Shown piece by piece: positions 421 to 63,277 of a DNA stretch of 64,000 bases. This DNA is from Dysidea avara (Eukaryota > Porifera > Demospongiae > Dictyoceratida > Dysideidae), in contig NC_089272.1 in NCBI RefSeq assembly GCF_963678975.1, positions 62,198,574-62,262,573 on the forward strand, in the 5' to 3' direction. Position 1 is the stretch's first letter. The number at the start of each line of letters is the position of its first letter. The notes beneath the pieces were generated by a model, which was given only the letters and a program-made list of their open reading frames with translations, had not been told where the DNA came from and did not search any database. Made by a program: the position numbers and the translations under genes.

Positions 421-1340
421 TTACTTAACTTACAAATGATGGAGGTTAATAGCTTAACTGTGGTTAGCACAAAAAGAATCATGCACACCTCCAGCCAGTT
501 ACGCACGTGATGCAGAAGGCGCCATTTGTTGGCCCGTGTGATCGAACTCAACTCGTCGTGCGTAAAAGTGCCCCACCACTCCCAATCCCGTTCTACGAAT
601 TCCACCACATACTCCCTTACTCCTAATAAACAAGGAATAAGGTGAAAGGTCAGATCCTTCTCCACAGCACGGGCTATGGAACTCTCGTCCAGATAGGCTC
701 GAGTTAGCTGCAGGGGCCAAAAATCCTACATCGAGCCATACAGATTACAACAAAGGCTCGAAAACGCAATAGCAGCTACGTGCTTGTCACCCACCTGCGC
801 TGAGAGGGGATCACGTGCACCTGATCTCGTGATTAAATAACCTGACCACTTGCCAAAAATTATAGTTAATGGTGATACCACCAGCATCTACTAAATGTAA
901 TTCGATGAATACTTAATACCACCAACAACCACAATACTAATAACACGTTACATAAGTAATATAGTTACTGTAACGAATCTAATATTACGTAATATTATTA
1001 CTACAAGTAACGAAGTTACTAGTCTCATTAGTAACGCCTAGCCACAACGAAGTAACGAGGCCTACTGAATGAAGCTTATTCACCAGCTTCTTACTTATAA
1101 CCAAGATTTGCATATTGTCCAACAGCGCAATCATGTCACGTGATAAGGTGGTAGTTTCACACGTGACAGCTTAAGGCTGTGGACACAAAGTAACATAATA
1201 TGTAATATTATTATAGTTACTTTATTTTATGGGTAATATGTAACTGTAACTAAATAGTTCAGTTGCAAGTAATATGTAATATGTAACTAGTTACTTTTAT
1301 AAAGTAACTTGCCCAATACAAAGTAACTTGCCCAACACTG
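421..1340. repeat. Repeat-rich block; right end is a GTTAC-rich transposon terminus
   Basis: From about 930 to 1340 the sequence is dominated by GTTAC and GTAATATTA words in both orientations. Its right edge, read on the minus strand, starts CAGTGTTGGGCAAGTTAC, a terminus often seen on short hAT-like elements. This edge cuts into the CARD exon of pseudogene A. I could not find the matching left terminus. From 421 to 930 I see no gene; the open frames there are short and unrecognised. Confidence 0.5.
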
Positions 1341-1540
1341 TCAGTCTGAGACTTGTTGAGTAAGAACTGGTGGTCTTTTCGTGTAAGGAGATTGTGGGAA
1401 TAAAGTTGAGGTGTGATAGTATCAATGTCTAGTTTGCTGATAATTGTTTGAGCACACTCTTTTAACACATCACTTGCCTCCATCTTTTTCTTAGAAGCAG
1501 TCTGTGAATTACTAGTACTGGGCAGTGAATGACGGCTAGG

Positions 1541-1574
1541 AAGAGTTTATAATGGTAACACATTATAAACTCTT
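1541..1574. repeat. Short palindrome (AAGAGTTTATAATG type)
   Basis: Near-perfect inverted repeat: AAGAGTTTATAATG, a short spacer, then the reverse complement. It abuts the 3' splice site of the CARD exon of pseudogene A on the minus strand, so its pyrimidine-rich arm forms part of that acceptor. Related palindromes with AAGAGTTCATAA arms lie at 15722-15765 and 44821-44846. Confidence 0.6.
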
Positions 1575-2395
1575 GCTGCTAGGATGAGGTAAAATACATG
1601 ACAATAATACACATACCTGTACTATTTCCACACACATTCATCACTGCATGTTGTCTACGTTATATCCTTACCTCTTTGGTGGTAATGGTTGGGTACGCTG
1701 ATAGACACTTGTCACAGAAGACTCTGAACTTGTAAAAGCAACTACTCTATCTTGTGGAGACAGGTTGGTGTTTAACGAGAATTTCTTTGGCTTGGGTGGA
1801 AGAGGCGGAGGTTCTTGTGAGTCTGTAGTTTCTGTGCCAGCAGCATCCTGAGTTTGCTGACTCAATTTCCTATTTTTTAGTTTGCTATAGCTTTCAGACT
1901 GCTTGAATGTACCGCCTTCTGATTTTGATATAACCTCAGATCGTAAACGAAATCCAGGTGTATTGTGTGAAGGTCTTCCGTACAAAAGTTCAGAACCATT
2001 ACAATCTGATTCTTGCATGCCATTATTGTGCTTGCCACAACTGGAAGAGACTCCCTTTGATTTTGGAGTTGATGGCAAGTACCAGCCAGTCGTGGTAGGT
2101 GCACTCTGATCAGTCAGTTTCTGGAGTAACTGGTGACTGTCACTACTGGTGAGATATGTGCTGCTAAGTTCAGGATCAACAGAAACAAGCTCTATCGAAT
2201 CACACAATATGGATCTCTTCTGGTCAGGATGAAGGAAACTAAAATAGAACAGTATGAAAACAGCAATATGCAAGACACAAGACTCAATATACACAAAAAA
2301 TGTTCACTACAGACCACAAGGTGATTTAGTTTGCACAATTCAAAAACCACTAATTCACATATTGGCCTTTGTTCTAACTAGACAAGAAACAATAG

Positions 2396-2417
2396 GTGTG
2401 TGTGTGTGTGTGTGTGT
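2396..2417. repeat. (TG)n microsatellite
   Basis: About eleven TG units in the intron between the PTB and linker exons of pseudogene A. Confidence 0.9.
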
Positions 2418-2956
2418 AGTGTATGACTTTTCCCATACAGTATTTACTTACTTATGAAGACTTTCTCTTAGTTTACTAAAGGGAGGGCAGTACATCCACA
2501 GTAGTCCTGGTCCGCCATGACAATTTCTTCCAGGCTCTATGAATACTTAGTGATTCAATGCAACCAGATCGCCGGATCTTATCTTGATCCCACGTTACAA
2601 GATGCTTCTCTGTATGGTAAGCATAGATATTGAAGGTGGCATCACTCTCCTTAATGGTGATGATGTGGAGTCCAGATAAACCAAGGATGGATGCTACTCC
2701 CTCGTTGATCAAGTAAACGACAAATACATTGGCTATAAGGGAAAAAGCATTACAACAATAATAATATTCTTATCATGTGCATGTAAAAAAAGTACACTTA
2801 CTAGCTCCAAATTAGCTGGGATCAGTGTATCTACTAGCACACTCCTGGGAAACTATACTACGTTTTGGTACCTTAGGAATGGCATAGTTTGGTAATGTAA
2901 GTAACACATTGCAATATTCAAGCCATTTTGCATGGTCTTCCTCTGATTCGACATAA

Positions 2957-5908: not shown

Positions 5909-6266
5909 TTATAATTCTCTGTGAGTTTTATCACACTCATTTAAGCTGGAACAAGACAACTCCTCAAGCTTTTCAATGATAATTCTATGTCCAGTTCCAT
6001 AAGTAGATTGATGTAGGCAATACAAAAATTTATCAAACCATCCTCTGTCCTTTTTAGGTAATATCTTTATCAAATACTTGGCTTTCTCCCCATCATGTGC
6101 GTCACTTTTTAAGAATTGATGGTCAGCGGGTGTTAATAGTTGTTCATTGTTTAAGTGAGGAATAATAGCCAACACATCTAACTTCTTGGCCAACACAGTT
6201 AAACATTCTTTTAGCACTTGTGCTTGTATTTCTTCATTCTTTGAAGTAGTCCACACATTGCAGGAC
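5909..6266 (-). pseudogene. Orphan CARD-like exon (copy E)
   Basis: Open minus-strand exon with an acceptor (TATACAG at 6267-6273) in the same phase as the CARD exons of B, C and D, ending at its own stop codon. The protein is a complete CARD-like fold by pattern: LKECLTVLAKKLD helix, LLTPADHQFL, then KYLIKILPKKDRGWFDKFLY and a GTGH motif shared with all paralogues. It most resembles the copy D CARD (KGWFQSFLWCL). No PH, PTB or linker exon lies upstream on the same strand before 13 kb, where the DNA is filled with transposons. It is either the last exon of a gene whose front has been lost or an exon with unrecognised partners. Classed as a pseudogene because it stands alone, although the exon itself is undamaged. 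Confidence 0.65.
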
Positions 6267-6393
6267 CTGTATACACATATACAATGATGAAGTACTTATG
6301 TTCCAGTGTTTATAAAAATTGTTACAACTGAAATCAGAATTTATTGTTAAATTTGACAGCCAGTGTTTCTAATTAACTGTGGATAACCACCCC

Positions 6394-20800: not shown

Positions 20801-23800
20801 GTGTTAATTGCATTTTGAGATTGTGAAGGTGGGATATAGCATTGAAGGAGGGAAGCGGTGGCCGTGATAGTCATTTCTAACCTTCTTGGTGGGTGGCCCA
20901 TTGTTGCTATCGTTCATCTGGAAGTTTTCTTCATCTTTCTAGTTTTGTGTAATCCTGCATGCCACTACAGTCTTAGTGAAGTACGCTGCATAGGATGACC
21001 TCTTGGGTGTTTACTTATACTGTTTTCTCAGGTGGGACTCCCCTCTCTCTTTGTCTTTCTAGCTTGTCAACAAAGACATTTACTGCATCCGTGGCCTGGC
21101 ACGAGATCTCGTGTGATTAATATAGCCCAAGTATAAAAACCTAACCTATTCAGTGAGGCTTAACAGGGCTTATTGTGCCAAGGCCATGTACTTGTCATAT
21201 TTCATCAATCAGGAAGTATTTCAGCACCCAAGGAGGCCCAGTATGCTTTTCAATACAAAACCATTGGGCTCACGTGCACGCTTCCAACCTCCTCTGGGTC
21301 AGGGTAATACATGAAACATGGCCTGTGGTTTCCTTTGATCTGAGGTGTCATTGTGGTATATATTTACTAACTGTGTCAGGGGTAGTGGAGCAGGCCGAAG
21401 AGTGAGCATACAACACATACGATATTATTCTTGGGAGTCTGGGACCCCCCAGGAAATTTTTCATAGTTTAGAACTGCTCTGTTAGAGTATCTTGATCTTT
21501 TCTTGCAAGCGCATGGTTCAGGTGGGGGGCCATGCTCCCCCATTTCTACCACCTATGTACTGTATGATACAAAATTTTGGTGAGAGAAAATTTTGGCAAT
21601 TAGAATTTGGTGGATAAATGCTTGTCATATTTGCATTCTCTCTATTTAGTTTACTAAAAAATTGAACAAAAATTTTCTATGGTGAATTATAGTCATTCCC
21701 CAAAATTATACAGTATTCCATTTCATGATCATTCTAGGTGACTGTCTTATTAGTAAGAGTAGTACAACAGTGTGACAGTTCTATTAAAATTTTTGACTGC
21801 TCTATTAGAGTATCTTGATCTTCTTTAACAGAATTGTGCAGATATTTGTACCGGTAATGTTTTGTAATTGCTTCAGAATGCCAACATGATTCCTTACTCC
21901 TACACATAGCTATTATTCCTGAAGCTGTGTCGTCATAATCACCCCATCCCTAAAAAGTAAACAAACTTGAAATCTCGTACAGCCTGTAGAATTTGAAATC
22001 TAGTCTTACAACAGATTTTCCATGTATTTCGAGTTCTTAACGTCATGTGAGTCAAATATTCTGGATATTCTGCTTTGAAATCTTGCCATAAAGTCTTTGA
22101 AATTTGGAAAGATTAGAAATCTTGTACAGGATTTGTTTTGACTTGTAGACCCCCTAGAATAAGCAACAGTGTTACAGGATAAACCAAACTACTTACTGTG
22201 CATGTGCATCTTTTTCAAAGTGAATAGTAGTCCAGATAAGTCTTAGCAGGAACATGGATTGAATGTGTGCGGTTGCCTATATTGTCTAGTTTGTGAAATA
22301 GTGATTTTATCACTGTATGTAGGTATATGTTGTGCTTTATAGTTCTCAAAGTGTCCCACCATTTTTACAGTATGCAATATTGAATCAGTTAATTGGTATC
22401 TTTAATTAAGGTATTACTGATTAAGCAGATGTCAAAATTGTATACTGTACATGTCTTTATCACACAGTTTTGGTCTAAAATACCACCCTTAAAACAGCCT
22501 CACAATACCTTCACGGTGCCTTAGCAATGTTGTTTAGGTATAACTAAGCCGTAAAGTGCCTTCAGTACAACCTGAAGCACTTACAATAGGTTGCTACATT
22601 TGTTCAAAATTATTCAGTGGAAGGACTGACTGATGTCTTTAGACCATCATAACTTGATAATGGCTAAGGCTATGGGCTTGATTTTTTCACTGCTCGACGT
22701 CGTTTCAGCCCAACATACAGCAATACATCATAGACTTACTTGTGTCTTACTTTGTAAACAACGAAAGTTTGAATTCAGCGAATCTACCAAACTTTATTCA
22801 GCTATCAGCTATTCAGTATATTGCTCTATGTAAGTTGCATGATATATTTGCCATACTTTGTCCGCTAACCTGCTTTGTGTGCTGATTCTCCAAACTTAAG
22901 TCGTGTCAAACTTTCATTGTTTACTGTATCTTTACTGACAGTGCAAGGTGTCGATTAGTAGAAACATTGTGTGATGGCTTCCATACAAATTGTCTTGAGT
23001 TTTCTGTTGTGACTGGAGTGATTGCAGAGGTCCTTGACTTCTTGACGTGTTCTTCGTTTGTAGCAGGCTGAACATAGCTGAAAACAAAGTGAAATGGCCA
23101 CATTAGCAATTGATAGTTGGGGTGCGAGTTCAGACAAAAACAATAAGCCTGGCACCTTTCTTTCTTCTAATGCAATATGCATGGGTTCACCAGTCATAAT
23201 AATGAATACACAACCAAGTACTAGGAAAAATTAGGAATTGTAAGTTCGATTTAATAATCAGTCTATACCTGACCTTCCTTGTTTCACTACGTTTACTTCT
23301 TTGATCCTAATCAAGCTTAAACTTCTTAATTTTTCCTGTACAGGTGTATAAGCACGCTTATGAGAAATTTAACTGAAGTATATGCACAACTCTCAAGAGT
23401 GCACGGTACTCAAGGGAGAGTGCATATAATTTATTTCAGTATTATCCCAAGCAATCATGCTCTGAATCATTTCTGATGGACTATGGTACTTCATTATAGA
23501 ACTCAGTCCTGGATATTTTATAAAATGGACAAAATATGCTTGATCCATGCAAAATGCCACACAAATCACTATTAACACAGATGATGTAGCCTACCTGTAG
23601 CACAGTCTTAGCTATAGTCATTCCTCTAATATTGTATTGTGTATATGTGCTTTACACATGTTGTTAACATGTTATACAGGTCTTTGTCTGGTGGTAGTAG
23701 CCCTCCTCCTATGCCTTCAAAACATCAACTAGAAAGACTAGCTTTTCAAAAGTGCTCCACAAAAATGGTAGACAGTTTGAGCATAGCAACTATCCAGCCA

Positions 23801-25871
23801 TACTTAATGGATCAAGGATTGCTAACTCAGAGAGACATTGAGATTATGATGCACAGGTACATGACCAATCATGAAAAAATTATACACCTTATTTCTGAGC
23901 TACCAAGGAAAGGAGATGGGTTCTTTGAAAAGTTTATGCTTTGTCTTTGCAACTCAAAATCTGGAACTGGACATAATGATATTATAAGGTCTCTGACAGT
24001 GTCATTGAATGAGGTTAAGATAGTTCATTCTAAAGGAGCTGAAAAGGTACATTGTCAGCCATAGTGTTTAAAGATCACTGTGCGTTAATCCCAGTACATA
24101 AAATTCAAAAGTTCTGTTGTGTAACTTTCAAATCTGACCAAACCAATATGACGTTTTATAATAATTATCAGTCAGCAAGCTTGGTCTACACAGCCCCTGA
24201 GGACATATTTACCTGCATCCATTATTACATTAGAGGCCCAAACAAACTTAGGTGAATTCGAAGGTTTGTTCAAACAAACGAACATTCGAATGCAGGTTGA
24301 ACAGTTCAAACTATAGCAACTAATTAGATAGCAATACAGTTGAGCTATCTATCTTGCTGGGTTCCATAATGATGTGGGGGGAGCTAGACATATGGTATTT
24401 GGCATTTATGTGTTGATGGTTTAGTGGTGGTCACAGGCCATGCCTCTATGAGGTTTTAAGGTTTCTATGTGGTGCCAGTCACTTGTCTCAACTGTATAGC
24501 AGTAGTAAAATGTATTTAAAACCTAGAAACCACAAGCATTTTTACTTGTGGTATTCAATTTCAAGTTTTCTCAGTAAAACTGTTGAGTCAATACAACTAC
24601 ACGTGTGTGTTGCAAACTTTTGGGACATGCATTTAACATTTAATATGCTGTGATCTATAATTTATAAAGAGGAACCAGCTCCATTTAAAAGTTCGAAAAA
24701 TTCGTGAACTTTAGTTGATGAATGTTCGAACCCCAAGTTCGTTTGGGCCCTATATTATATTGCATAATCTGGGGTACATGATTAAAAGGCTGATGGCACT
24801 GAGTTTGGAATGTAGGGCAAACAACACAGTACATTTTATGATTAAAAAGCAACTCTAATTGAGAACTCTACTATTCATAGAACATTCAGATAAACCCAAA
24901 CATGTAGCTGAGGTAATCCTGTGTGTATTGTATATCTCAGTATGTTGTATACTTACCAGTAGTCAAAAAGATTTTATCCATCTATGTATCAAAGAGTACA
25001 CGCCTACTTAAGCTCCTAATTAAATTTCTACCATATGATAAACTCAAGCTCAGCCTCCTACAGAAACTCGACCTACAAAAAGATGCTAGACAGCTAAATA
25101 TGTTGGGTGGTATGGCTTTGTGCGTACACATCAACTTTGACATATCTCACTGATAAATTAGTGTGCCTCCATGTATGCCTACAAAAAGTATCTCATCCTC
25201 ACATCTGTTTCAGGACAATAACTTACACAATAGCAATTGGTTAGTGGGTGTGGGTTCATGCAAGTCTACAGACAGCAGTGTCATGCACACATACAGAATT
25301 TAATGTACCTACTGATACAGAGCTTAATTTAATTCTTATGGTGCCAAGGACAAATGCCCGTACATATTCACAATTGTAAGGACAGACTTTAATTGTACAG
25401 ACACGGGGAATACTTTACACTGTTGGAATTGGAATAGAGAGTTTCCATAGTATTGCTTTCATCACTATGGTTGAAGGTTTTGAGGTCAACTACAAGTTGA
25501 CTTGACCATACACACTGAAATTACCAAAATATGTTATTTCAACATCCTAAGTGATCAGTTATATTGACCATCCCTAGTTATTTTGACTGATTTAGTTCAA
25601 ATGCCTACCCTAGTTACGACCACCTTTAGATAGTCATTTTAACCAAAATTTCTGTAGTTTAAATTTACCCATGGAGGTCAAATTGATCCATTTGAATTTG
25701 CTGTGTGGTTTTTGGGTGATGTGGTTTCATGGGACTAACCTTTGTGGTCCCTACTACAATACAGCACTATTGTACCTTATGATACAGTAAGACATAGAAT
25801 GTATGTACACCTCACTCATCACCAGACTATTACTTTTTCACTAGATGCCAGAACAAACTACTGCGAGTTGA
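14853..25871 (+). CDS. Dok-like adaptor with CARD domain (copy B): PH-PTB-linker-CARD
   Basis: Six exons with GT-AG sites: 14853-14921, 15816-16179, 18766-19054, 19124-19822, 23680-24046, 25845-25871; phases 0,1,2,2,0; 604 aa. Residues 1-144 form a PH domain (start NGPVTV, C-terminal helix with TKWFRYCGLL). Residues 145-241 are an IRS/Dok-type PTB domain with IRKSGC and EAGRKCAGGPG, keeping both arginine positions that contact phosphotyrosine in Dok proteins. Residues 241-474 are a Ser/Thr-rich linker with three YEN motifs (YENC, YENF, YENQ; possible Grb2-type SH2 sites) and PPLPPR (SH3 ligand). Residues 474-596 hold a CARD-like domain (LISELPRKGDGFFEKFMLCL, then GTGH). The last exon adds MPEQTTAS. 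ATG 14853 is chosen because copy C starts identically (MS-x-CSWGRT); the upstream reading differs in frame between the copies. Likely a cytoplasmic, membrane-recruited scaffold. Pairing of Dok and CARD is unusual; the role is inferred. ATTAAA at 26086 may be the poly(A) signal. Confidence 0.88.
15722..15765. repeat. Short palindrome (CAAGAGTTCATAATA arms)
   Basis: Inverted repeat with AAGAGTTCATAATATTT arms around a TATATA centre, at the end of intron 1 of gene B, about 50 bp before exon 2. Same family as 44821-44846 and 1541-1574. Confidence 0.8.
16223..16732. mobile_element. MITE, TIR TACCGTAYGGAGGGAAA, in gene B intron 2
   Basis: Left end TACCGTATGGAGGGAAA, right end the reverse complement with one difference; both ends continue into TTGGCGAAT-type subterminal repeats. 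It lies 43 bp after the donor of exon 2. Confidence 0.8.
17486..18013. mobile_element. MITE of about 528 bp, TIR GGGCCCAAACGAACTT, in gene B intron 2
   Basis: Starts GGGCCCAAACGAACTT and ends AAGTTCGTTTGGGCCC, flanked by TA. The interior has several TTCGAA words. A second copy of similar length in reverse orientation lies in intron 5 (24235-24750). Confidence 0.85.
20092..20268. repeat. Small foldback in gene B intron 4
   Basis: Arms TTACAAGTGCTCGAATACAT and its imperfect reverse complement ATGCATTCGAGAACTTGTGA. No coding content; the short frames over it are chance. Confidence 0.6.
20632..20760. repeat. Tandem repeat with ATCATGATATTGCCCTAA units
   Basis: Three to four units of about 35 bp centred on TGATATTGCCCTAATCACAT, bounded by inverted CCACAGG/CCTGTGG and GGGTCAGG-type ends. 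Intron 4 of gene B. Confidence 0.75.
20761..23679. other. Remainder of gene B intron 4
   Basis: No exon supported. It contains two CTCTRTTAGAGTAT motifs (about 21473 and 21795) and a dispersed repeat at about 22630-22745 that also occurs in reverse at 38290-38495. Confidence 0.5.
24235..24750. mobile_element. MITE of about 516 bp, reverse copy of 17486-18013, in gene B intron 5
   Basis: Ends AAGTTCGTTTGGGCCC and begins with a slightly worn GGCCCAAACAAACTTAG. The interior matches the first copy in the opposite orientation over essentially its whole length. Confidence 0.85.
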
Positions 25872-29437: not shown

Positions 29438-30216
29438 TTAGGTGAATTTTTTGCCAAGACCAAGTGGCACAAAAATTCACTTGAATTGTCGTTATTAAAA
29501 TGTTTACCATAAACCTACCATCACAGCCATTTCTTGGCCGCCACCTTGGATTTTACATCTTTTTTCACCATAGCCTTTTTGAGGGCCGCACTGTTTTTTT
29601 ACAGCTTGGCTGTTTTGGATTAGATAGGCAGTAACAGCTAGTAATTTGCTTAGCTTACTGAATCTTGTTACATCTATGAGGTGCTGGAGCCCAATACCAG
29701 GTGATTCAGTAGTGTTGACTGGTGGTATGTCAACCTCCTCATCAACATCTGTATGAGTAGAATTTCTGCATGTGGCCGTATTGGCCATCTGGGTGGTGAA
29801 TTCAACCATGTTGGACCTTGTCTCCATTGAATGAATGAGTTCAATTGATCAAAGGTTATTCCTCGGGTGAGCAGATCAGCCGGGTTGTCAGCAGATGGGC
29901 AATATCTCCATTCTATTGAAACTGATCGTATTTCATTGACTTGATTGCTGACAAAGGTCTTCAGTGGTTTCTTGATAGTAATACAGTAATGGCTGTCGGA
30001 CCAGAAACAAACATTAGTGCCAGTGCTTATAGATGTTGAGATAAAACCATATAGTCTTGGTACCAAGTACAGCAGCCATCAACTCAACTCTAGGTAGAGT
30101 GTGCTACTTGAGGGGTGCAGCTCTTACTTTCAACATTATAGTATTGCTGATCGTGCTCCTTGTTGAAAGTATGCAACAGCTCCATATATTATGTATTTGG
30201 ACTGGAATCTGCCAAA

Positions 30217-30218
<2 letters not shown>

Positions 30219-30274
<56 letters not shown>
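30219..30274. repeat. (GT)n microsatellite
   Basis: About 28 GT units inside the BEL/Pao remnant. The poly-Cys/Val and poly-His/Thr frames here are artefacts. Confidence 0.95.
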
Positions 30275-30276
<2 letters not shown>

Positions 30277-31595
30277 TGTAACTTCAGCTGGTACTACTAT
30301 CGCAATGCATTGACGTGGAAATGGCATTGCTGTGGGTTGGGTAATGTCAGTGGAAAGCTTGTACCAAGTCTTACTTAGAGCTTCACTTAGTAGGGTGTCC
30401 CATTTCAAATCTTGCTGCCATAGTTGCTGTAAGAGCAGTTTAACAGTAATGGTGACAGGTGTTGTTAGACCTAGTGAATCAAAGATGCTCGAGGTCCACT
30501 TCAAGATATTTCTCGCTTCGTTGCTAACAAGGTGAACATTGTGGTATCTGGATTAGGTAGGACGCATACTGTGTCTGAGTGAGTATTCCACCACTGATAA
30601 GCCTAGTACTTTAATTGGATTCGTAGTGTCAGCTACATTTTGTGTATGTACCACACTGTTCAACTGTGTGCTGTTAGATTCCTAAGACCGTAAATTGAAG
30701 CTAGCACTGCCTTGAATGGATCTGGATTGTTCAAAATACTTTACAGCAGCTTCTTCATTGCAGGAGCCTGACACAACATTGTCAATCTGGATATTATGGA
30801 GGAGATCTCTGGATGTTGATGAGTCATTCTAGTTTAGATGGTAGTGTATAGTAGCATTAGCATGAAGGGAGAACATATTGCTCCAAACAATACAACTTTA
30901 AAACGAAATACAAATTGGCTGCTTGAATCAGCCAGATTGGAGAGCCAAAGGATATGTGTAAAGTCTCTGTCTACCTCATCTGATGTACATGTAAAAATGC
31001 CTTTTCTATGTCTGCAGAAAATGCAAAGTTGTGCTGATGGAAGCATAACAAGATTGAACAAAGATCATTTAGAAATGGGGGCCCAGGGTTGAGGCAGTCA
31101 TTCAGACTGGGCAAACTTGATGACTGTTTACAGCTGCAGTCGTAGATGATTCGGATTGGTGTAGTTGATGGCTCTTTTGGGTGATCAGTCCTCCATGGGA
31201 ACTTGAGGCAGTATGTACCATTTGGCTGCAAAGTGATGTTATTATCTAGTTACTGTTGTAGAAAATCTGTGTCAGTGTTCTGTTTCATTGGTGTGGTACC
31301 TGGTTTCATTGGTGTGGTACCTGGCTACAGATTCCACCTTCCAGAAATTATCACAATCTGTATCTTCAGTGATGCAGGAAAGGGTCAGAACTTGTGAGCA
31401 GGTGATGTAAGCTGACTGGGGGATTGGTAGTAGGCCGGATAGGAGATAACCCAATCTTGATTCAACAGCAGTTGGTCCATTGCCACGGATAATTCGATCT
31501 TGTATAAATTGCCAATAGTAACCAGCTCCAATTAAAATAGATATGTTGAAATTCTCATCATGGTAACTGGATGGGCTAAAAATAAAAACTAACAT

Positions 31596-32703: not shown

Positions 32704-35700
32704 TTAACTATACTCCGTTATTTCTGCCTGTAAACGTTTAGCAAGAGCACTCTCACCTACAGATCGACTGCATAATGCTTTCAAAAGTTTCTTCCATGAT
32801 TTCTCAGCTTGTGTGTTCCCCAGCCATTCTCTAAACATGTGTCTGCATGCAATCCTGGAATCCTGAGTGTCATATTCGATTCTTGTCAACTCACTCGAGG
32901 GAACACCTAACTGGAGACCCATCTCAAACCACTTGGTAGACATGAATGGGGTGACCATTTCTGTAATGCTGGCAATATCTGAAAGAAGTAATAAGGAATA
33001 TGTAAAGTATTACTATGCTTTAGGGAATATTATAGTGTAAGTACTAATTTTAAAAGTATGACATTTTGGTAGGTTGCACCTAAATTATCAGCTATCCCAA
33101 ATGACCATATACAATTGCATTTCTGTGAGTTACAGTTATAAATGTGACTTTTACTGACCCACAATGTCACTATCAACAAATAAAACACTTGGCGAATATA
33201 AAGATGATCAGGAGTCAAATTATGAGTCATTATAGTATTGAAAGTTTAAATACTGTACCAGCTTGCTCAGTATCGGAGAAGAGGAAGTTTCACCCTTCTC
33301 TACATTTTCCTGTATTACTCCTACTAGCTCTTACAGAGTATGTAATATCTTCTCTTTATACCATAGATAGAGTACTGCCAAAACACTGCCACTAAGAAGT
33401 GTCACAGAAACTCATAAAAGTAGTCAACTTTGTGCCAATAATTCTAATATATGTAGTGGTTACTTACATGAAAAACCTAACTGGTATGCTTATGTTTGCT
33501 ACAAATTTTGGGAATAATAAAATTAATAAGTAACTCAGGAATAATTTTGAGAATAATAAGTGTATAAAAAAAGAAATGCCGGAAAAAAAGATTTTGGAGC
33601 TTAATAGCCTTAAGCCTAGTGGCACGGGTTTGGTAAGTGTCTATCCTTAGTCATCATCTGCATGTAATAAAATGAATGAGGTGTTAATTTTCTGTATTGA
33701 CATTTTCCTTGCAGGTGCTTACATAGAAGCCGCAAATTTATTATTAAATGAAGCACTTACACTACTGTAAGAGGGAGTAGATTATTTGAAACACCAGCAG
33801 ACAGAACATGGCTATATACCATGCCCCTTAATGATCTAGTTGTGCACTGTATACAACAGGAACACGAGGAGGTTTATAAGGTAGCAGGGGTCATTATAAT
33901 AAAAATTGCTTAAACAAGGGGGATCACCATCTGAATTGCAAAATTAATTCCTATTTAAGCCCATATAGCTAAAGTACGGATAGCTACATCTGCACATCAA
34001 AATAATGATTACCCTCCTTGTATACCGCTTTATTGTGTAATGATCCTTGTAACTTCATTCTTCATTAGTGAACTACTATATATAACATGGCCAAGGCAAA
34101 CACCTGCATGGACTGCTCTATTAGACTAAGTATATATCTTGATGTTTCATCTGTGAATATTTTTAGATACCTGGTAAAGCAATGGTCTGCCATTCTCCTC
34201 TTTAATATATGATACACAATTTGCGTAGGTAGCATAACTATAGTTTATGCTATGTGTACCAGTCATGCATGAATGTGTGGTAATGAACTGTAACTTGAAA
34301 AGAAGGGGATGGTGTATGCATCAATTAAGAGCATTAACTATAATGACTATAATGTTACATCATTTACCAAGTGGTAGTTTTATCTCCGCATTAGTTGGTG
34401 TATTCTCTTTTGGAGGTAGTAGTTGATTGTCACCAGTAACCTACGTACAATGTACAATAAATCAAAGACACCAATTTCATAGCAACCAAGTTACAAAGTA
34501 GGGATTTTTGTACAGTGTATGAAAAGAAGGAGAATTAGGCTCCCACAAAGCATGAAGAAAAAATTAAGAATAAAAAATATATAATAGTCTAGAGTGCTAT
34601 TCCAGCATAATTGCTAGCATATTAGGTGGGTAATTCAAACAATGGAACTTAATTCCATGAAAATAGATCAATACTCCCTAATAGAGCAGTCAGTAGAATC
34701 CTTAGATTGATACTCTCTGATAGAGTAGTTACTTTGTAGTGAAATATTTTATGTAACAGAACATCTATTGATTAAATGTTCCAGAAATGTTTTTAACCTA
34801 GGAGTATAATGCAAGCATAATGGGAACACTGAAAAGCATAATAAGTGAAAATATTTTGGGAAATTCCTGAAAGTATTTTTGGCAAACTTTTGAGTGCATA
34901 TTTGACTCAGGCTTATTGTATTTTGCTTCAATTTGGTTTACTTTCTACCCTTATTATAGTCAATATGCTTAGCAAGATCTCAAGAAACTACACATAGGTG
35001 TAACAACCTTGGGGGGGGGGGCAAAGGGGCTCTAACCCTTGCAATTTTCTGATTGTAAATTGCAAAAAGATCGAGATACTCTAATAGAGCAGTCAATTAC
35101 TCTAATAAAGCAGTCTCAGCATCCAGAGAGGCAGTGTAGCAAATTATGAACTTGAATTTTATGTGCTTAATAATCAATGATACAATGTATATTTGGTGGA
35201 GGGCAGCCATTCTTAGCAGGTATTGATTTTTTTTTTTGCTCTTGAACATTGTGCCCTACGAAACCGAGAGTCTAGAACCCCCCTATCTAAAAATAATCTT
35301 GCTATACACCTATGCAATACTGCAACTAGAGGCTACCGATAGCTACCATGCATGACAATCTATTATGTATATGATCACCTCTTTTGTGACATTATTGCCA
35401 TCAAGTTTTGTATCACTTGCACATTTCCTCAACTCTTCACACTTTAAAACAAGTTCCTCATGAATCACATCATGTCCAGTTCCACTTGTAGTTTGTTTTA
35501 AGCACCACAAGAAGGATTGAAACCATCCCTTTCGCTTTCTAGGTAAATTATTCACCAAAAATTTTGCTTTATCTCTGTGTGACCGGCTGTCACTTAGTAA
35601 ATACTGTCTGTCATTATCATCAGTGAATAGCTGTTGCCTCTTTAATAATGGTTGAAGGATTGCAGCATGTAGTTTTCTAGTTAGCACTGGGAGACAAGCT

Positions 35701-37606
35701 TTTAATGCCATTTCTTGAATATCATCATGCATTGCATCCCAAGTAGTGGAACAATTATCTGATTCACTAACATAGAACAAATAAAATATGCACTATATAT
35801 GTACAAATGCCACTCAACCAAAATCATGAATATAAACTAATGATGATGTAGTTCAAATGGTAGGAAACGTTGTTACATGACTGCATGTTAGTGAGCTATT
35901 AATTTGCAGATATAGTTTGTCTATAAACCATGAAGCACAATGAGATAACAGCATGCAGGATTTTGATTCAGCAGATACCAAAAATAAGATCTTTACCAAT
36001 ATTATACAGTGTATATACACTCATACGGACAAGCCTTACAAGCTTACCATAGCATTATATTTCCCAAGCTAACATTTTTACATTTCAGTGTATTCTTCAA
36101 TCAAATGAATTTCCACAATAATCTGTACCTAACTTTGCACATCACTGTAGCATCGCTTGAAAATATTAAATACTAAATATATATAATTCTTTTTGGAGTA
36201 ACGTCCCTGGGATTTGTTTAAGAGCTTGCACTATGTATGGTTAAGAGGTCTGCGGTTTACTGGCATATGGATATGATGTACAGTGCAATTATACGTATCC
36301 AATATACATACACAAACCTGTCATGACACTTCTTTTTAGATCTGTTTGTTAGATCTGGTGGCTGTGGCCAGCTAGAAGATGACTCTTGCTTTTTGTTCAC
36401 TGAACTAAGGTTAACTTGACATGTTATTTGCAATTCCTGATCAGTAGAATGATGTGTGTGGAGTGTAGAGATTTTATGGGTCAACACAAAGGATTTGGAT
36501 AATGACATGGAAGATGAAATAGTTATACTGTCTGAAGCACTTGTGCTAGTAGTAGTAGAATAATTGAGATCCTGACAACCTGAGTCAATAATATCATCAT
36601 TGCAGTCTTGATTGTCAGAATTTGCAGAGAAGTATTCATCAGAGTCTGGTGATAGTGACCTTTCTGAGTCAAGAAACAATGATGATTTTTGACAATCAGC
36701 TTCAGAAGATGAATGTGTTGTGCCGTGAGTCAAGAAAGGATCAACAGGAAGACTAGTCGTCATTGGGTATGCTTTACTGTCTGCGTATGATCCAGAATTA
36801 ACTGAGCTTGTAAGAGACAAATCACATTCCTCTTGAGAATTTCCACAGTTAGATCTGAATTATATCCACATGCATGACATGAACTAGTAAATCAGTTTTA
36901 TATATACTAGTCTACTTACTTTTGAACACATTCACAGATTTCTGAAGCATTAAAGTTGAGGCTGTACATCCATAGTAGACCCAAGTGGCGTATCTTCACA
37001 TATACCATAGATCCAATATTATCACATATCAGCAAATCAGTCATATTCCAAGAATGCAGACACTTTTCAGTGGACACATCAAGAATTCTAAACATATGCT
37101 CACCACCTCTATTGCGGAGATCAATAATGTGTACACCTCGGTATTCACGATCATGATAAAACTCACTCTCAACTAAGAACACTATCCAAAGGTTTGCTAA
37201 ATAGTTGGTAAAAAGTTCAAAACAAACAATCAAAGGTATAGACTACATTAACATCAGATACCTTACCAGTGTCCTTATATTTCTTGTTGAAGTTCTTTAT
37301 TGCAGCTTTATGGTAAAATCTTGGCACATCAGGAATTAAATAATTTGGAAATGTCTTTAGAAATCTACAGCACTTGAGCCATATATCATGTTCTTCATCT
37401 GAGTCAGCATAAAATGACAGTGCTTTTCCATTATATATTATATCAATACTATCCCTCACACCAACTTTTGTACATTTAATCGTAATACAGTTTTCTTTTG
37501 CAAAAGAGACTTCTGAAGTAGAATGTTTCCTTGAAAATAACAGTTTAGCCTGCTCATTTTGTGCATCACCACAAACCGCTGTTAAACACATCTCTTCATA
37601 GTCCAA
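32704..37606 (-). CDS. Dok-like adaptor with CARD and Death domains (copy D): PH-PTB-linker-CARD-DD, 5' partial
   Basis: Exons on the minus strand: PH 37606-37267, PTB 37196-36920, linker 36854-36318, CARD 35766-35379, short exon 34440-34368, Death 32978-32704. Every junction has GT-AG ends and phases 0,1,2,2,0,1, leaving one open frame of 629 codons. The first five match B and C exon for exon. The PTB exon keeps the fold pattern (YRGVHIIDL, LGLLWMYSL) but lacks the arginine-rich EAGRRC segment, so phosphotyrosine binding is doubtful. The linker is acidic and Ser-rich, without YxN or PxxPxR. The CARD reads FLVNNLPRKRKGWFQSFLWC with GTGH. The Death domain reads FEMGLQLGVPSSELTRIEY, CRHMFREWLG, SWKKLLKAL, a canonical six-helix pattern. 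Reading through the CARD donor would give a stop at 35343 and a form without the Death domain. The first exon, expected beyond 37606, was not found. Role in death-fold signalling is inferred. Confidence 0.83.
34441..35342. other. Gene D intron between CARD and short exon
   Basis: No coding content. Contains CTCTAATAGAGCAGTC motifs at about 34675 and 35069 and a poly-G run near 35010. Confidence 0.6.
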
Positions 37607-41370: not shown

Positions 41371-41387
41371 ATTGATAATAATAATAT

Positions 41388-43013
41388 ATAGTCCAGCAGA
41401 TGATAGTAAGGCTTGTGGACCTGATCTGATTACTGGATTTTTGCTAAAGTTCTGTGCTGAGAGTATATCTGTGCCACTATTATATCTATATACAAAGTCA
41501 ATGGAGACTGGTACTTTGCCACGTGACTGGGTCACAGCCAACAATGTCCCAGTTTACAAGAAGGGTGATAATTGTGATGCTTCTAATTATCGCCCAATCA
41601 GCCTTACCTCTATTGTTGTTAAAATTATAGAGCATATAATTCACTCACAGCTAACTTCATGCTTAGAGACTCATGGTCTCATATTAAATCATCAATATGG
41701 TTTTCGTAGACATCATTCAACAACTCATTTGTTGGAAGTTACTTATATGATTGGGCACATACTTTAGAATTACGTTAGAGCTGCCATTGTTTGTTCCTTG
41801 ACTTTTCTAAGGCATTTGACACTGTCCCTCATTCGCGTTTATTATTAAAATGGGAGAGTCTTGAAATAACTGGTGATTTGTTGAACTGGATCAAGGCTTT
41901 TTTAACTACTCGAGCTCAGCAAGTTGTTGTCAATGGGTCTCACTCTAGTTGGTTGCCTATTATTTCAGGAGTGCCCCAAGGCTCTATCTTGGGCCCACTG
42001 TTGTTTATTTGATATGTTAATGATATAAAATCTGTGATCTCACACTCCTATCTAAAGATGTTCGCTGATGATCTTACTTTGTATCGGAACATTGCCAGTG
42101 TGAGTGATTGCGAGTTGTTACAATGGGATCTTAGGAGGATATATGAGTGGACCTTGACTTAGTTGTTACGACTAAATCCACTCAAGTGTGAAGCCTTACC
42201 AACAAGTGCTGTCCTTTACATTTTAATTACTACATTGGATCTCATTTGATAAGCTGGGTTCAGAAAGTGAAGTATCTTGGTGTTTTTGTAACTTCAAAAT
42301 TGAATTGGTCCGACCATTGCAAATATTGCGTGCATAAGGCTATGGTTTGTCTCAATCATCTTCGTCATATTATGTTTGGTGCTTCATTTTCAGCTAAGAA
42401 CATTGCGTACAAGTGCCTTGTGAGACCCCATCTTGAATATGCCTGTCCTGTTTGGTCTCCCTTTACTTCTTCTAACATTAAATTGATTGAATTAGTGCAG
42501 CGCAGAGCAGCACGCTGGATCTGTAGCACCTGGAATCCACTATCACATCAGTGGTCCAAATCATTGGATGACTGTATTAGTGAATTGCAATGGCCATCCC
42601 TGCAGTCTAGATGGCAATTCTTGTCACTGTCAATTTTGTATGATATTTGGAAGGGGCGTACTGGAATAAACTTTAGTGATTACTTTGAGTTCAATACACT
42701 GTGTATAAGGTCACACTCCAAAAGTGTTTTCTTCTACTATCAATGCTTTCCGTTATTGTTTTTGTGTATCCGTGGCATTCTTGTGGAACACTATTCCTGA
42801 GGACATTTTGGCCCGAAGCCAGGTTAAACATTTCAGATCTAGATTGAAACAGTTTATTTTAATGTGATTGTTTAATTCTGTACTTGTATTGTGTATGTTG
42901 TTCTGTTTTTGTAATTGTATTTTTGTAACTGTAAGGATTGTATGTAAGGGTATCACCTTGTACAGGCACATGACTTTTGTGTATCCCTTTAAACAATTTG
43001 ATAATAATAATAA
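41388..43013 (+). pseudogene. Dead CR1/Jockey-type LINE, reverse transcriptase part
   Basis: Reads in several frames: [83 protein letters not shown] (catalytic FADD present), VKYLGV, then the C-terminal domain (YKCLVRPHLEYACPVWSPF, RRAARWI). A frameshift around 41765-41790, stops after GPLLFI and in the palm, and later frame changes make it non-functional. It is 5'-truncated and ends in an ATAATAATAA tail at about 43001, like the LINE tail at 28350. Confidence 0.88.
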
Positions 43014-58600: not shown

Positions 58601-59752
58601 GACACAGTCCACATGTAACCCAGTGTCACCCACAGTGGAGGAGCTTAGAAGGTTAATGTCTGTTGTGTTACTGTTTATGTGGTTTGATTGGTTAGGGAAA
58701 TTTTCAAATTGGCGGGATGTTATTTTAGTATATGGCTTGGCATTAGTCACAAAGCTTTGTAGTGTATAGAAATTCACCGGTTTGCTAAATTATATTCTGA
58801 GCCAACCAAAGAGCATCTATGTATATTCAGTATGCAACAATGTTATGCATGATATTATAGACATTGCCTTTTTTTTGTTTTATACATTACTATTTTGTTG
58901 TCTGCACAGTTACGTACTCTCACTGTTGTTTTGTTGCAGGTCATCATCTAGCAGTGATAGCTCTCCTGTACCATCAAAACATCAACAAGAAAAAAAAGCT
59001 TTTTTGAAGTGCTCTTCAATAGTAGTGGACAATTTGAGCATACCAGCTATTATACCACTCTTAATGGAACAAGAACTGGTTAATGAGAATGACGTTGATA
59101 TTTTGATTAGTCAGCACAAGACTAAGCTTGAGAAAACTATGCACTTGATGTGTGAACTACCCAGAAAGGGTGAAGGATTCTTTGAGAAATTTATTCTGTG
59201 TCTTTGCAAGTCAAAAACTGGAACTGGGCATGATTTTATTCTAAAGTCTTTAACAACTGCACTGAATGAAGTGAAGGGACCTCAGCCTGAAGAAAATGCT
59301 AAGGTAGTCATTCTAACTGTTTACGTATAAATACCATTGTTACCTTGATTCGCTGTCACCTTTACATATTGATCCTAATTAAAGTCCATTACTTGTGTTG
59401 ACTGTCATTGTTACGGGTGTGTGTGTACCTGATGCTTTATCCAACCTATCTTAGTAAAGTATTTAATGTCCTAGGCACTTGTGATGAGCACCTGTTAGGT
59501 CTGACTCATTTATAGAATGTCCGGCCGGGTCTGACCCGAATTAGTTCACTTGTGAAATAAATTAATTATCAGCTTGACAGTGTAGAAGTGGATCATATTC
59601 TAGTCCTGCAGTAGCCCTGCTTCTTTCATGAGCCACGCCCATTTATCAGGATTGTGTGTCTTTGTCTGTAGTCATAGAGCTTCATTGTTATTGCCAATTA
59701 CTAAATTGTGTTACTTTTTCACCAGATTCCAGTGCAAGTTAGCGACATCTGA
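52609..59752 (+). CDS. Dok-like adaptor with CARD domain (copy C): PH-PTB-linker-CARD
   Basis: Six exons with GT-AG ends: 52609-52674, 56628-56997, 57661-57949, 58001-58651, 58940-59303, 59726-59752; phases 0,1,2,2,0; 588 aa. PH at residues 1-145 (TGPVMV start; TEWFRCCGLL helix). Dok-type PTB at 145-242 with IRRSGC and EAGRRCSGGPG, so both phosphotyrosine-contacting arginine positions are present. Linker 242-459 with YENV and YENQ (YxN, Grb2-type) and PPLPPR, plus SSGYSSDTSL. CARD-like domain 459-580 (MCELPRKGEGFFEKFILCL, GTGH). The final 27-nt exon encodes IPVQVSDI and the stop, parallel to copy B. Closest to gene B in sequence and organisation; intron 1 is enlarged to 3.95 kb by foldback elements. 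AATAAA at 59918-59923 fits polyadenylation about 165 nt past the stop. Proposed role: scaffold linking tyrosine phosphorylation to CARD assemblies (inference). Confidence 0.88.
52904..54800. mobile_element. Composite foldback of 1.9 kb in gene C intron 1
   Basis: Outer ends TGTGACCCGGTCTGGGAAAA and the inverted TGTGACTGTATCTGGGAAAA continue as matching arms of about 150 bp. Two further inverted pairs are nested: 53060-53755 (arms with GTGGACCCAGGGACC, about 240 bp) and about 53865-54560 (arms with GGAAAAAGCAGCCAGC). The whole unit could fold into a multi-arm hairpin. No coding sequence. Confidence 0.75.
55095..55235. repeat. Foldback palindrome in gene C intron 1
   Basis: Arms AGTACGAGCGATTAAAAAAC and inverted GTTTTTTAATCGCTCGCACT, with a second inner inverted pair GAGCATTCATCCC/GGGATGAATGCTC. 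Confidence 0.85.
57357..57534. mobile_element. Pogo/Tigger-type MITE in gene C intron 2
   Basis: Ends CAGTGGATCCTC and GAGGATCCACTG flanked by TA on both sides; the interior repeats TTATCCGAAC/TTATCCAAAC words, typical of pogo-like Tc1/mariner termini. A related end (CAGTGGAACCTC) may be present at about 60172. Confidence 0.85.
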
Positions 59753-61699: not shown

Positions 61700-63277
61700 T
61701 TACCAATTTGGTATTAAATGTTTGGCAAGAGCACTCTCACCAACAGAATGACTACGTAATGCTTTCAAAAGTTTCTTCCATGATTTCTCAGCTTGTGTGT
61801 TCCCCAGCCATTCTCTAAACATGTGTCTGCATGCAATCCTGGAATCCTGAGTGTCATATTCGATTCTTGTCAACTCACTCGAGGGAACACCTAATTGAAG
61901 GCCCATCTCAAACCACTTGGTAGACATGAATGGGGTGACCATTTCTGTAATGCTGGCAATATCTAAAGGTATAGCAATACAGTGTAAATTGGTTCACATT
62001 AGTCAAAGTTGTGTACATTCACTGCTAGATCTATTCTATGCTAGGCACTCATTGTATTAATAAAATTGAGGCCTGAGCACCACAACAGTAATATGACTGT
62101 TCTATTACAGTATATTGATTGACTGCTTATCTATGAAGTACCGTTTTGATCTATGCGTTCTCCAAATGTGACCGGATTTGCGAAAAGGGGTCTTCCATAA
62201 ACATATCCAATTCTATGAACTCGGAAGACCATAACTCATTGTTCAAGAAGTAAATTAACCTGACAATTTCTCCATACACTAAGCACTGTTGGTACTCGCT
62301 ATAATTATACTGACCAAATTTCAAGGCAGTAGCTATTTCCAATCTGAAGTCAAAATTGTTAAATTGAATGTGTGGGGAAACCCCTTTTCGCAAATCCATG
62401 TGCTACCAAATTATAGATGAATGATGCTGTGAGCAATATGACAATATTTTAGTCAAACTGTGGTATCTGTTTTTGATACTGTCCAATATTTGACTACTGC
62501 AAATACCGTGGATTCTAAAACACAAATTTTAAAATAAATTAGCCTGTACATAATTATGAAGATGTGTACTTGTAGTACATATGAATGGATATGTATCAGA
62601 GGAGGTTGGACGCGTTCACATGAGCTGTACTTTAATTGCATTCTTTGATTTGGTGTTTCACATGATCATCAATAGTTGCAATACAAAACTGAAAAACGGT
62701 GGGGATCATTAGATATTCAGATCGTCCTTTGTGTAAGCTTCAAGGCAATGTACTTTCTTTTGTAATCAGTGCTTGAATTCCGGGTGAAATTAATAAGTTG
62801 TGGTTTGGTGTACACTACTTCACTAGCCTTCACGTACGAATTCTATTAACGAAACATGAAATGACTCAGTGAGATCGCGATGTATTAACTTCCTCTACAA
62901 AAGGGATTTTGTGTAATTTGTTTTAGTGGTGCGTAAAGTGCGTCCAACCTCCTCTGGTTATGTATATACTGCAGTCGGCTTTCAATGCAATTCTACCATT
63001 ACTGAAAGTGATCAGGGTCTAACTCTACAACTACAGAACATTCAATTTAGCCATGCTACAATATCAAGTTGACAATACCGTACTGTTTATGGAATATCAC
63101 AATCGCTCAGCACTATATGCATGCGTAGCACATGAAAGACAGCAAACACATGAAAATAAAAGGAATGGTAAATTTTGTTATTAAGATGATGTTACGTCAC
63201 TTACCAGGCTGCTGTTCTATATCCACAATAGCTGTTATACTCCCCTCTGAATGTGATTGCTGATTATAACCAGTAAC
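61700..63277 (-). CDS. Last two exons of a second Death-domain adaptor copy (copy G)
   Basis: Exon 63277-63205 (73 bp) and Death exon 61962-61700 match the last two exons of gene D in length class, phase (0 then 1) and splice sites. The Death domain has the same FEMGLQLGVPSSELTRIEY and CRHMFREWLG sequence but ends LAKHLIPNW rather than LAKRLQAEI…, so its last helix is altered or shortened. The 73-bp exon begins VTG like that of D but is otherwise diverged. Upstream exons (CARD and beyond) would lie past the right end of the window; the 0.7 kb available holds none. Confidence 0.72.
62167..62402. mobile_element. MITE, TIR TGTGACCGGATTTGCGAAAA, in the gene G intron
   Basis: Left TGTGACCGGATTTGCGAAAA and right CCCCTTTTCGCAAATCC are inverted. 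Same terminal family as 52904-54800 and 48895-49141. Confidence 0.8.

Follow-up and report, generated by a model that had tools for sequence, protein, structure and literature searches.

Based on the exon structure of a 64,000-nt stretch of DNA (the window), we suggest that the gene called copy D is probably one of at least five clustered, related genes for a docking adaptor, in which a PH-like/PTB front is followed by a Ser/Thr-rich linker and a CARD-Death back, and that this back end has moved between fronts. Coordinates are positions in the window unless prefixed C1. Copy D is read on the minus strand, and its exons are the following.

37267..37606, minus strand: PH-like exon (C-terminal part of the domain; phase 0 in, phase 1 out; PH support weak)
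36920..37196, minus strand: IRS/Dok-type PTB exon (D alone is without a Pfam match)
36318..36854, minus strand: Ser/Thr-rich linker exon, from direct exon reading
35379..35766, minus strand: CARD exon, exit phase 0
34368..34440, minus strand: 73-nt exon between CARD and Death (phase 0 in, phase 1 out)
32704..32978, minus strand: Death-domain exon with the stop codon (PF00531 match)

The five introns between these six exons are all GT-AG, and the entry phases from the PH-like to the Death exon are 0, 1, 2, 2, 0 and 1. The joined frame stays open for 629 codons without a lesion and terminates with TAA. Direct reading bears out the earlier note on this DNA, in which the CARD exon was said to end in phase 0 at 35379, with the 73-nt and Death exons continuing in phase to a stop.

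That note also treated D as special, which it is not: D is one of five loci, and the other four are stronger in Pfam. Loci E, F, H and I, at most 0.3 Mb away, repeat the exon order, strand and phases (0/1/2/2/0/1) of D, and all are open. Since the layout recurs in this way, two readings were rejected: that the frames of D are open by chance, and that D is a unique fusion. Copy E, for which a reading of 719 aa starting at an ATG is possible, extends beyond the window:

63205..63277, minus strand: 73-nt joining exon, at the same place as in D
61700..61962, minus strand: Death exon with stop, the protein being 92-93% identical to that of D
C1:62264213-62263829: CARD (beyond the window)
C1:62265176-62264469: linker (beyond the window)
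C1:62265507-62265228: PTB (beyond the window)
C1:62265922-62265565: PH exon (beyond the window)
C1:62269896-62269804: candidate first exon (beyond the window)

D, E and F each have a joining exon of 73 nt; those assigned to H (70 nt) and I (49 nt) are tentative, that of H not being the top-scoring one and that of I tying for the top score. The phases of the CARD donor and the Death acceptor are kept at all five loci. Among the ten Death copies at C1 62.05-62.615 Mb, six, namely those of the five loci plus the decayed copy G, lie downstream of a same-strand CARD no more than 4 kb away; under circular shifts the mean was 1.07, and six was reached in 285 of 100,000. A same-strand CARD lies within 6 kb downstream at 19 of the 24 PTB places, five of these 19 having a Death domain too.

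When the five loci were compared, pN was below pS in every segment pair but one (49 of 50), namely the joining exon of F against that of I; for PH, PTB, CARD and Death this held in all ten pairs. The Death exon is thus under purifying selection, and its identity is the highest or joint highest of the four domains in every pair (10/10). A stray insertion of the Death exon was rejected, given pN<pS and the kept phases. Because layout and phases recur at five loci and Death is under purifying selection, it is very probable that a single gene contains the CARD and Death exons, with the PTB upstream.

The stop at 35343 given in the earlier note is met when the CARD donor of D is read through, and such read-through yields a short tail and a stop at all five loci. 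This might be taken as a sign of two head-to-tail genes, a PH-PTB-linker-CARD gene ending at 35343 in a retained intron and a Death domain in a separate transcript. We regard this as very unlikely, because the tails differ (VIIYIIDCHAW, VIICAL, VTSCILCIIMYILFI, VTSYVDL and VFDHCV, with VII common to D and E and VTS to F and H), the donor and acceptor phases are conserved, and D, E and F have the 73-nt joining exon. The same difference in tails led us to reject intron retention as a conserved way of ending early. The two-gene arrangement also draws on copies B and C, for which a 27-nt terminal exon after the CARD had been claimed; a matching candidate was found in each:

23680..24046, plus strand: CARD exon of copy B, a PH-PTB-linker-CARD gene
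25845..25871, plus strand: candidate 27-nt terminal exon of copy B (8 residues and a stop)
58940..59303, plus strand: CARD exon of copy C
59726..59752, plus strand: candidate 27-nt terminal exon of copy C

No Death exon was found in B and C. On the other hand, the 27-nt exon motif (at most 5 mismatches) was absent from the 1.2-4.2 kb scanned at each of the other eight loci, including D, E, F, H and I, which again argues against separate genes.

With the one-gene reading preferred, the proposed order PH-PTB-linker-CARD-Death stood for PTB, CARD and Death at the five loci, whereas the PH-like domain gave only matches below the Pfam cut-offs. The PTB family profile has the IRS-1 PTB as its best PDB match (E 6.5e-6), and at E<=1 PF02174 matches five of seven family members, with 0.00034 as the best value; D is outside these five. 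The CARD of D scores 18.3 bits with PF16739 and 15.9 bits with PF00619, both below the cut-off for D alone; PF00619 matches seven of eight family members at E<=1, and the family profile best matches caspase-9 in the PDB (5e-4), with the RAIDD CARD at 0.0069. PF00531 matches all five Death-bearing copies; the Death exon of D reaches 26.5 bits alone (cut-off 22.6) and 22.1 bits in the whole-model scan. The Death profile matches THOC1 (0.0075), followed by RIPK1, FAS and PIDD above 0.05. In model H, with its predicted splicing, both domains pass: CARD has 32.9 bits against a cut-off of 23.9, and Death 30.3 bits against 22.6. When the candidate first exon is included, PF00169 matches the PH-like domain at E<=1 in three of seven copies (Q 20, P 16 and F 15.4 bits; cut-off 25.1) and gives no match in E, H, B and C; in the PDB, the PH profile matches the spectrin PH (8e-4) and, weakly, the IRS-1 PH (0.059 in one search and 0.39 in another). 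No NACHT match was obtained in models D, E, F, H and I.

Two arginines in the PTB alignment occupy what we take to be the phosphotyrosine-binding positions. Both are present in B, C and P, and only the second in Q and J; D, E, F, H and I lack both. The second is therefore found in all five CARD-only copies versus none of the five Death-bearing ones. Lysine takes the place of the first arginine in F, H and I and, in I, also of the second, and D and H have an arginine one column off an arginine site. Since the second arginine is missing from all the Death-bearing copies, the phosphotyrosine input proposed earlier is doubtful, and the receptor-docking step of the mechanism suggested below is weakened.

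A first exon is expected ahead of the PH-like exon of D, but no start-codon exon was found by motif or profile in the 12.4 kb upstream, so 37606 cannot be taken as the gene start. The first-exon motif is present in seven of the eight other loci with at least 2.3 kb of upstream sequence; F has a weak candidate only, which is no better than its control (5.9 vs 6.0). The motif was drawn from these same loci and the pattern set after the candidates were known, so these hits are not independent. The P/Q candidate scored 43 against up to 42 in the reverse-strand control and gained weight solely because a similar motif occurs in E, H, B, C and J. The upstream match in B and C is a candidate first exon; the candidate in J has no ATG in its frame. 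A reverse-transcriptase-like ORF lies upstream of D at 41372-41764.

The presence of this ORF, the lack of a first exon in D where most other loci have the motif, and PH and PTB identities that are among the lowest would fit the view that D is a chimera in decay that lacks a functional first exon, so that only the other loci encode the five-domain protein. We consider this rather unlikely: the open codons of D carry no lesion, its PTB compared with that of P gives dN 0.29 and dS 1.14, and its Death and CARD are close to those of E.

According to the PH-PTB tree, the five Death-bearing front ends represent three lineages, and CARD-only relatives belong to two of these; D joins P and Q (support 100/99), and a single clade of the five was rejected (AU p 5e-46). 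In the CARD tree the five Death-bearing copies group together (support 89/93, not a strongly supported clade), the node joining D and E is weak (75/56), and the CARD data reject a D+P+Q grouping (p 0.027). Between D and E, dS drops from about 2 for PH and PTB to 0.38 for CARD and 0.16 for Death. It thus seems that the CARD-Death back end has passed from one front end to another, and D looks like a chimera with a front like that of P/Q and a back like that of E. Alternatively, Death may have been lost repeatedly and the CARD tree misplaced, as the modest support for the clade of five would allow.

We suggest the following mechanism for the encoded protein, a putative docking adaptor. Its PH/PTB half would attach it to a membrane receptor or to the tail of one, perhaps without phosphotyrosine. 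The CARD-Death half would nucleate homotypic assemblies, the CARD with a caspase or NLR and the Death domain with another Death protein, in the manner of RAIDD. Receptor engagement would then lead to a death-fold signal, and we infer that membrane or receptor inputs are bridged to death-fold partners in this way. Within the cluster, the CARD-Death back end may have moved among PH-PTB fronts by recombination or gene conversion, the phase-2 introns flanking the linker being the likely joints of exchange.

It is also conceivable, with little probability, that the Death-bearing proteins act as dominant-negative or decoy adaptors, in which PTB and PH have ceased to bind their usual ligand and CARD-Death titrates partners. 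The absence of both arginines at the five loci and the weak or absent PH matches agree with this; however, the PH and PTB exons keep pN<pS and are therefore still selected for something. Returning to docking adaptors, we tentatively propose, at rather less than even confidence, a plug-and-play cluster in which recombination at fixed intron phases joins interchangeable PH-PTB fronts to interchangeable backs (CARD, CARD-Death and perhaps CARD-CARD). Evolution would thereby rewire the path from receptor to death-fold output, much as was done artificially with PTB-DED chimeras; since the phosphotyrosine arginines are missing from every Death-bearing front end examined, gain of Death may accompany leaving phosphotyrosine control.

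As a rule, adaptors that act close to receptors and adaptors of the death-fold type are separate proteins. The closest known counterpart is a Dok/IRS-type PH-PTB unit joined to a RAIDD-like CARD-Death unit. The likeness to Dok/IRS lies in the order of a PH-like domain and a PTB whose family profile best matches IRS-1, and the linkers of B and C contain PxxP and YEN motifs. In contrast, the Death-bearing copies lack the phosphotyrosine-type arginines, the PH is below the cut-off, and, to our knowledge, Dok/IRS proteins have no CARD or Death domain. RAIDD/CRADD shares CARD followed by Death as a single C-terminal unit, and the RAIDD CARD is among the CARD profile matches. It differs in that the five loci have PTB and PH-like exons upstream, so their CARD is not N-terminal, and in that the best CARD and Death matches are caspase-9 and THOC1; we know of no PH, PTB or linker in RAIDD.

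The engineered PTB- or SH2-DED chimeric adaptors of Howard et al. 2003, as described in PMC2575513, likewise join a phosphotyrosine-type docking domain to a death-fold domain, but they are artificial and contain DED instead of CARD-Death. Genes with CARD and Death domains are also described in large numbers for the sponge Dysidea avara, namely its NLRC/NLRD receptors (PMC12909245); unlike the five loci, these are NACHT-LRR receptors, and the words "PTB" and "phosphotyrosine" are absent from the main text of that paper. The earlier statement that no protein with the order PH-PTB-CARD-Death had been described agrees with the partial coverage of the open-licence literature, in which none was found.

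If the two halves are indeed carried by a single chain, the family would offer a natural parallel to the engineered adaptors by which tyrosine-kinase signals are rerouted to caspases. Likewise, if front ends of three lineages do share one kind of back end across five genes, the rewiring of adaptors by exon exchange would become directly testable in one animal.

Copy D, on the minus strand of the window (C1:62198574–62262573; C1 is contig NC_089272.1, and plain coordinates are window positions), was analyzed against the whole genome (551 Mb, 108 contigs). Its predicted exons, all read from the sequence, are as follows.

37606–37267, minus strand, PH-like exon
37196–36920, minus strand, PTB exon
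36854–36318, minus strand, linker exon
35766–35379, minus strand, CARD exon
34440–34368, minus strand, joining exon of 73 nt
32978–32704, minus strand, Death exon

When joined, these exons leave only GT-AG introns, with entry phases 0, 1, 2, 2, 0 and 1, and 629 open codons ending in TAA. All that the earlier note had read directly from D was correct. Judged from the sequence, the PH-PTB-CARD-Death architecture is very likely real, and D is probably a working gene. Upstream of D lies a reverse-transcriptase-like ORF (41372–41764), whose RVT_1 score of 28.5 bits is below the cut-off of 29.6; downstream of D, at 30139–30552, is a Pao-type retrotransposon peptidase (PF05380).

As genome queries, the D CARD and PTB gave 46 and 9 places, respectively; 150 places were scored for the Death exon, of which the best 18 all lie on C1 at 62.2–63.4 Mb. 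In the neighbouring DNA, four further loci (E, F, H and I) carry PH, PTB, CARD and Death exons in the order and strand of D, and a sixth (G) has decayed: stops interrupt its CARD and Death matches, and its PTB is reduced to a scrap. The predicted models of D, E, F, H and I share an identical phase series, and internal stops are absent from all five. The joining exon is 73 nt in D, E and F; the lengths for H (70 nt) and I (49 nt) are best guesses among several candidates. The Death exon of H ends at C1:62463852, and the linker of I contains two additional exons (117 and 126 nt) that keep the phase.

A conserved early end after the CARD was also considered. Read-through past the CARD donor gives short tails that differ among the five Death-bearing loci, which argues against it. 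A candidate for the 27-nt terminal exon proposed in the earlier note is present in B and C, two CARD-only relatives in the window, and was not found, at up to 5 mismatches, in the five Death-bearing loci or in the other CARD-only relatives (J, P and Q).

The association of CARD and Death was assessed for the 10 Death copies on C1 at 62.05–62.615 Mb and the 30 of the 46 CARD places in that stretch. Six of the ten (D, E, F, G, H and I) have a same-strand CARD no more than 4 kb upstream; under circular shifts the mean was 1.07, and six was reached in 285 of 100,000 cases, compared with 19 of 100,000 under random placement and strand. After merging two PTB searches (24 places, the two parts of copy A counted once), 19 places were followed by a same-strand CARD at no more than 6 kb, and five of these also by a Death match within 9 kb, counted over 30/46 CARD and 10/150 Death places, the remainder lying elsewhere. 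These counts indicate that PTB-CARD is the usual arrangement, with CARD-Death as the rarer ending.

Several other places in the genome should be mentioned. Two PTB places (C1:62137578–62140555 and 62163461–62166310) are each followed by two same-strand CARD matches, possibly a third kind of back end, PH-PTB-CARD-CARD. PTB-CARD pairs at C8:22259590 and C8:22770036 show that the family extends beyond C1. Copy A (1259–2955, minus strand) retains remnants of PH, PTB and CARD and is probably broken, since its PTB is spread over two frames. A CARD exon at 5909–6295 (minus strand) is nearer to the CARD of D than to that of B and has no PTB or Death matches nearby. A partial Death exon at C1:62455734–62455946 (plus strand; 86% identity to that of F) has no listed CARD nearby. 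Fifteen more relatives of the D Death exon, some with stops, occupy C1:62.7–63.4 Mb, with none of the 46 CARD places beside them. PF00619 (CARD) matched at least 127 places at E ≤ 0.001, with 150 of 331 candidates scored; CARD is strongly expanded in this genome.

Based on Pfam (E ≤ 1), Death was recognized in 5/5 members (best 5.8e-9), CARD in 7/8 (best 3e-9) and IRS-type PTB in 5/7 (best 0.00034), D not being one of the five. Against the PDB, the PTB profile matched IRS-1 (6.5e-6); the CARD profile, caspase-9 (5e-4) and RAIDD (0.007); the Death profile, THOC1 (0.0075), RIPK1 (0.054), FAS (0.065) and PIDD (0.086); and the PH profile, spectrin (0.013) and IRS-1 (0.059), then unrelated kinases. 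Scored whole, the D protein gave 22.1 bits for Death (cut-off 22.6) and 14.5 for CARD_2 (cut-off 28.2), which makes it a weak member. In the whole models, both CARD and Death exceed the cut-off in H; in E, CARD does and Death scores 22.5 bits; in F and I, Death exceeds it and CARD does not. No PH or PTB family matched the whole models of E, F, H and I at E ≤ 0.1.

The PH-like exon matched PF00169 in 1/7 members (0.029, E ≤ 1), and D matched Mcp5_PH (E 0.0015; 19.2 bits, below the cut-off of 25). In E, H, B, C, P, Q and J, the PH exon is preceded by a short candidate first exon that exits in phase 0 and fits a pattern like R-x-[VI]-x-x-G-x-[VI]. As this pattern was derived from candidates already seen, the count across loci is not independent. 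H and C contain a second match, and B and J overlapping donors. The pattern was not found in 12.4 kb upstream of D or 7.0 kb upstream of F; for I, 335 bases were examined. A profile of the seven scored E at 26 and Q at 31 bits, both being part of it (reverse strands ≤ 11.5), gave a weak candidate in F not above the control, and found nothing upstream of D. With the candidate exon added, PF00169 matched 3/7 members at E ≤ 1, namely Q (0.001, profile positions 2–100 of 105), P (0.018) and F (0.027), Q and P being scanned in this form only; E, H, B and C were unmatched. In E, the addition gives an ATG at C1:62269896 preceded by an in-frame stop, and 719 residues.

Among ten pairs of the Death-bearing loci and five segments, pN was below pS in 49/50 cells (Nei-Gojobori), although dS is saturated in several. 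The sole exception was the joining exon of F and I (dN 0.61, dS 0.41, 16 codons); joining exons are too short for a verdict either way. Among the four domains, Death identity was highest or tied highest in 10/10 pairs.

Trees of ten loci (D, E, F, H, I, B, C, J, P and Q, with P, Q and J trimmed to BLAST matches) differ between the two halves. In the PH-PTB tree, the groups are {D,P,Q} (100/99), {E,F,H} (98/97) and {I,B,C,J} (99/98); a single clade of the five Death-bearing loci, a group named beforehand as AU p-values presume, was rejected (p 5e-46), as was D+E (p 1.5e-9). In the CARD tree, D, E, F, H and I form one group (89/93, not starred), with P and Q paired (90/88) and {B,C,J} together (99/98); D+P+Q, a group suggested by BLAST identities rather than beforehand, was rejected (p 0.027). 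An error in the CARD tree would leave repeated loss of Death as the alternative; no Death was found within 2.3–2.7 kb downstream of P and Q. D groups with E weakly in the CARD tree (75/56), despite 66% identity and dS of 0.38 there; for PH and PTB, the dS between them is about 2, and for Death it is 0.16. Apart from the CARD and Death exons with a few bases around them, D and E share four short aligned pieces (34–81 columns), one in the matching intron and three out of register, which are probably repeats. Such a pattern points to conversion or recombination confined to the CARD and Death exons. The Death exons of D (32978–32704) and E (61962–61700) show 95.7% DNA identity over 255 columns, including long stretches that agree even at silent sites, whereas the introns around them do not align in register; gene conversion limited to the exon is likely here.

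In the open-licence literature, partly examined, no description of the PH-PTB-CARD-Death order was found, including the parts seen of PMC2246300 and PMC13012725. Many CARD and Death genes are described in a sponge in the portion consulted of PMC12909245. PMC2575513, in the part seen, cites Howard et al. 2003 for adaptors that couple a DED to PTB or SH2 and can divert tyrosine-kinase signalling into apoptosis; these are artificial, and their death-fold part is a DED. What is new here is the combination of domain kinds already known, plus the evidence of exchanged halves.

The earlier note had credited D with a phosphotyrosine input, which is doubtful. The region of IRS-1 Arg 212 and Arg 227, which bind phosphotyrosine, aligns with the family PTB profile. 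In the ten-locus alignment, Arg occupies the first site in B, C and P, and the second in B, C, P, Q and J. Neither site is Arg in D, E, F, H and I, where the residues are, in that order, Leu, Thr, Lys, Lys and Lys at the first and His, Gly, Gly, Gly and Lys at the second, with an Arg one column off the latter in D and H. Across ten of the 24 PTB places, the second arginine is thus present in 5/5 CARD-only and 0/5 Death-bearing copies, the latter spanning three front-end lineages. PTB domains can bind independently of phosphate, so docking of the Death-bearing proteins would still be possible. That they act as docking adaptors feeding a death-fold output is a plausible prediction, about evenly balanced.
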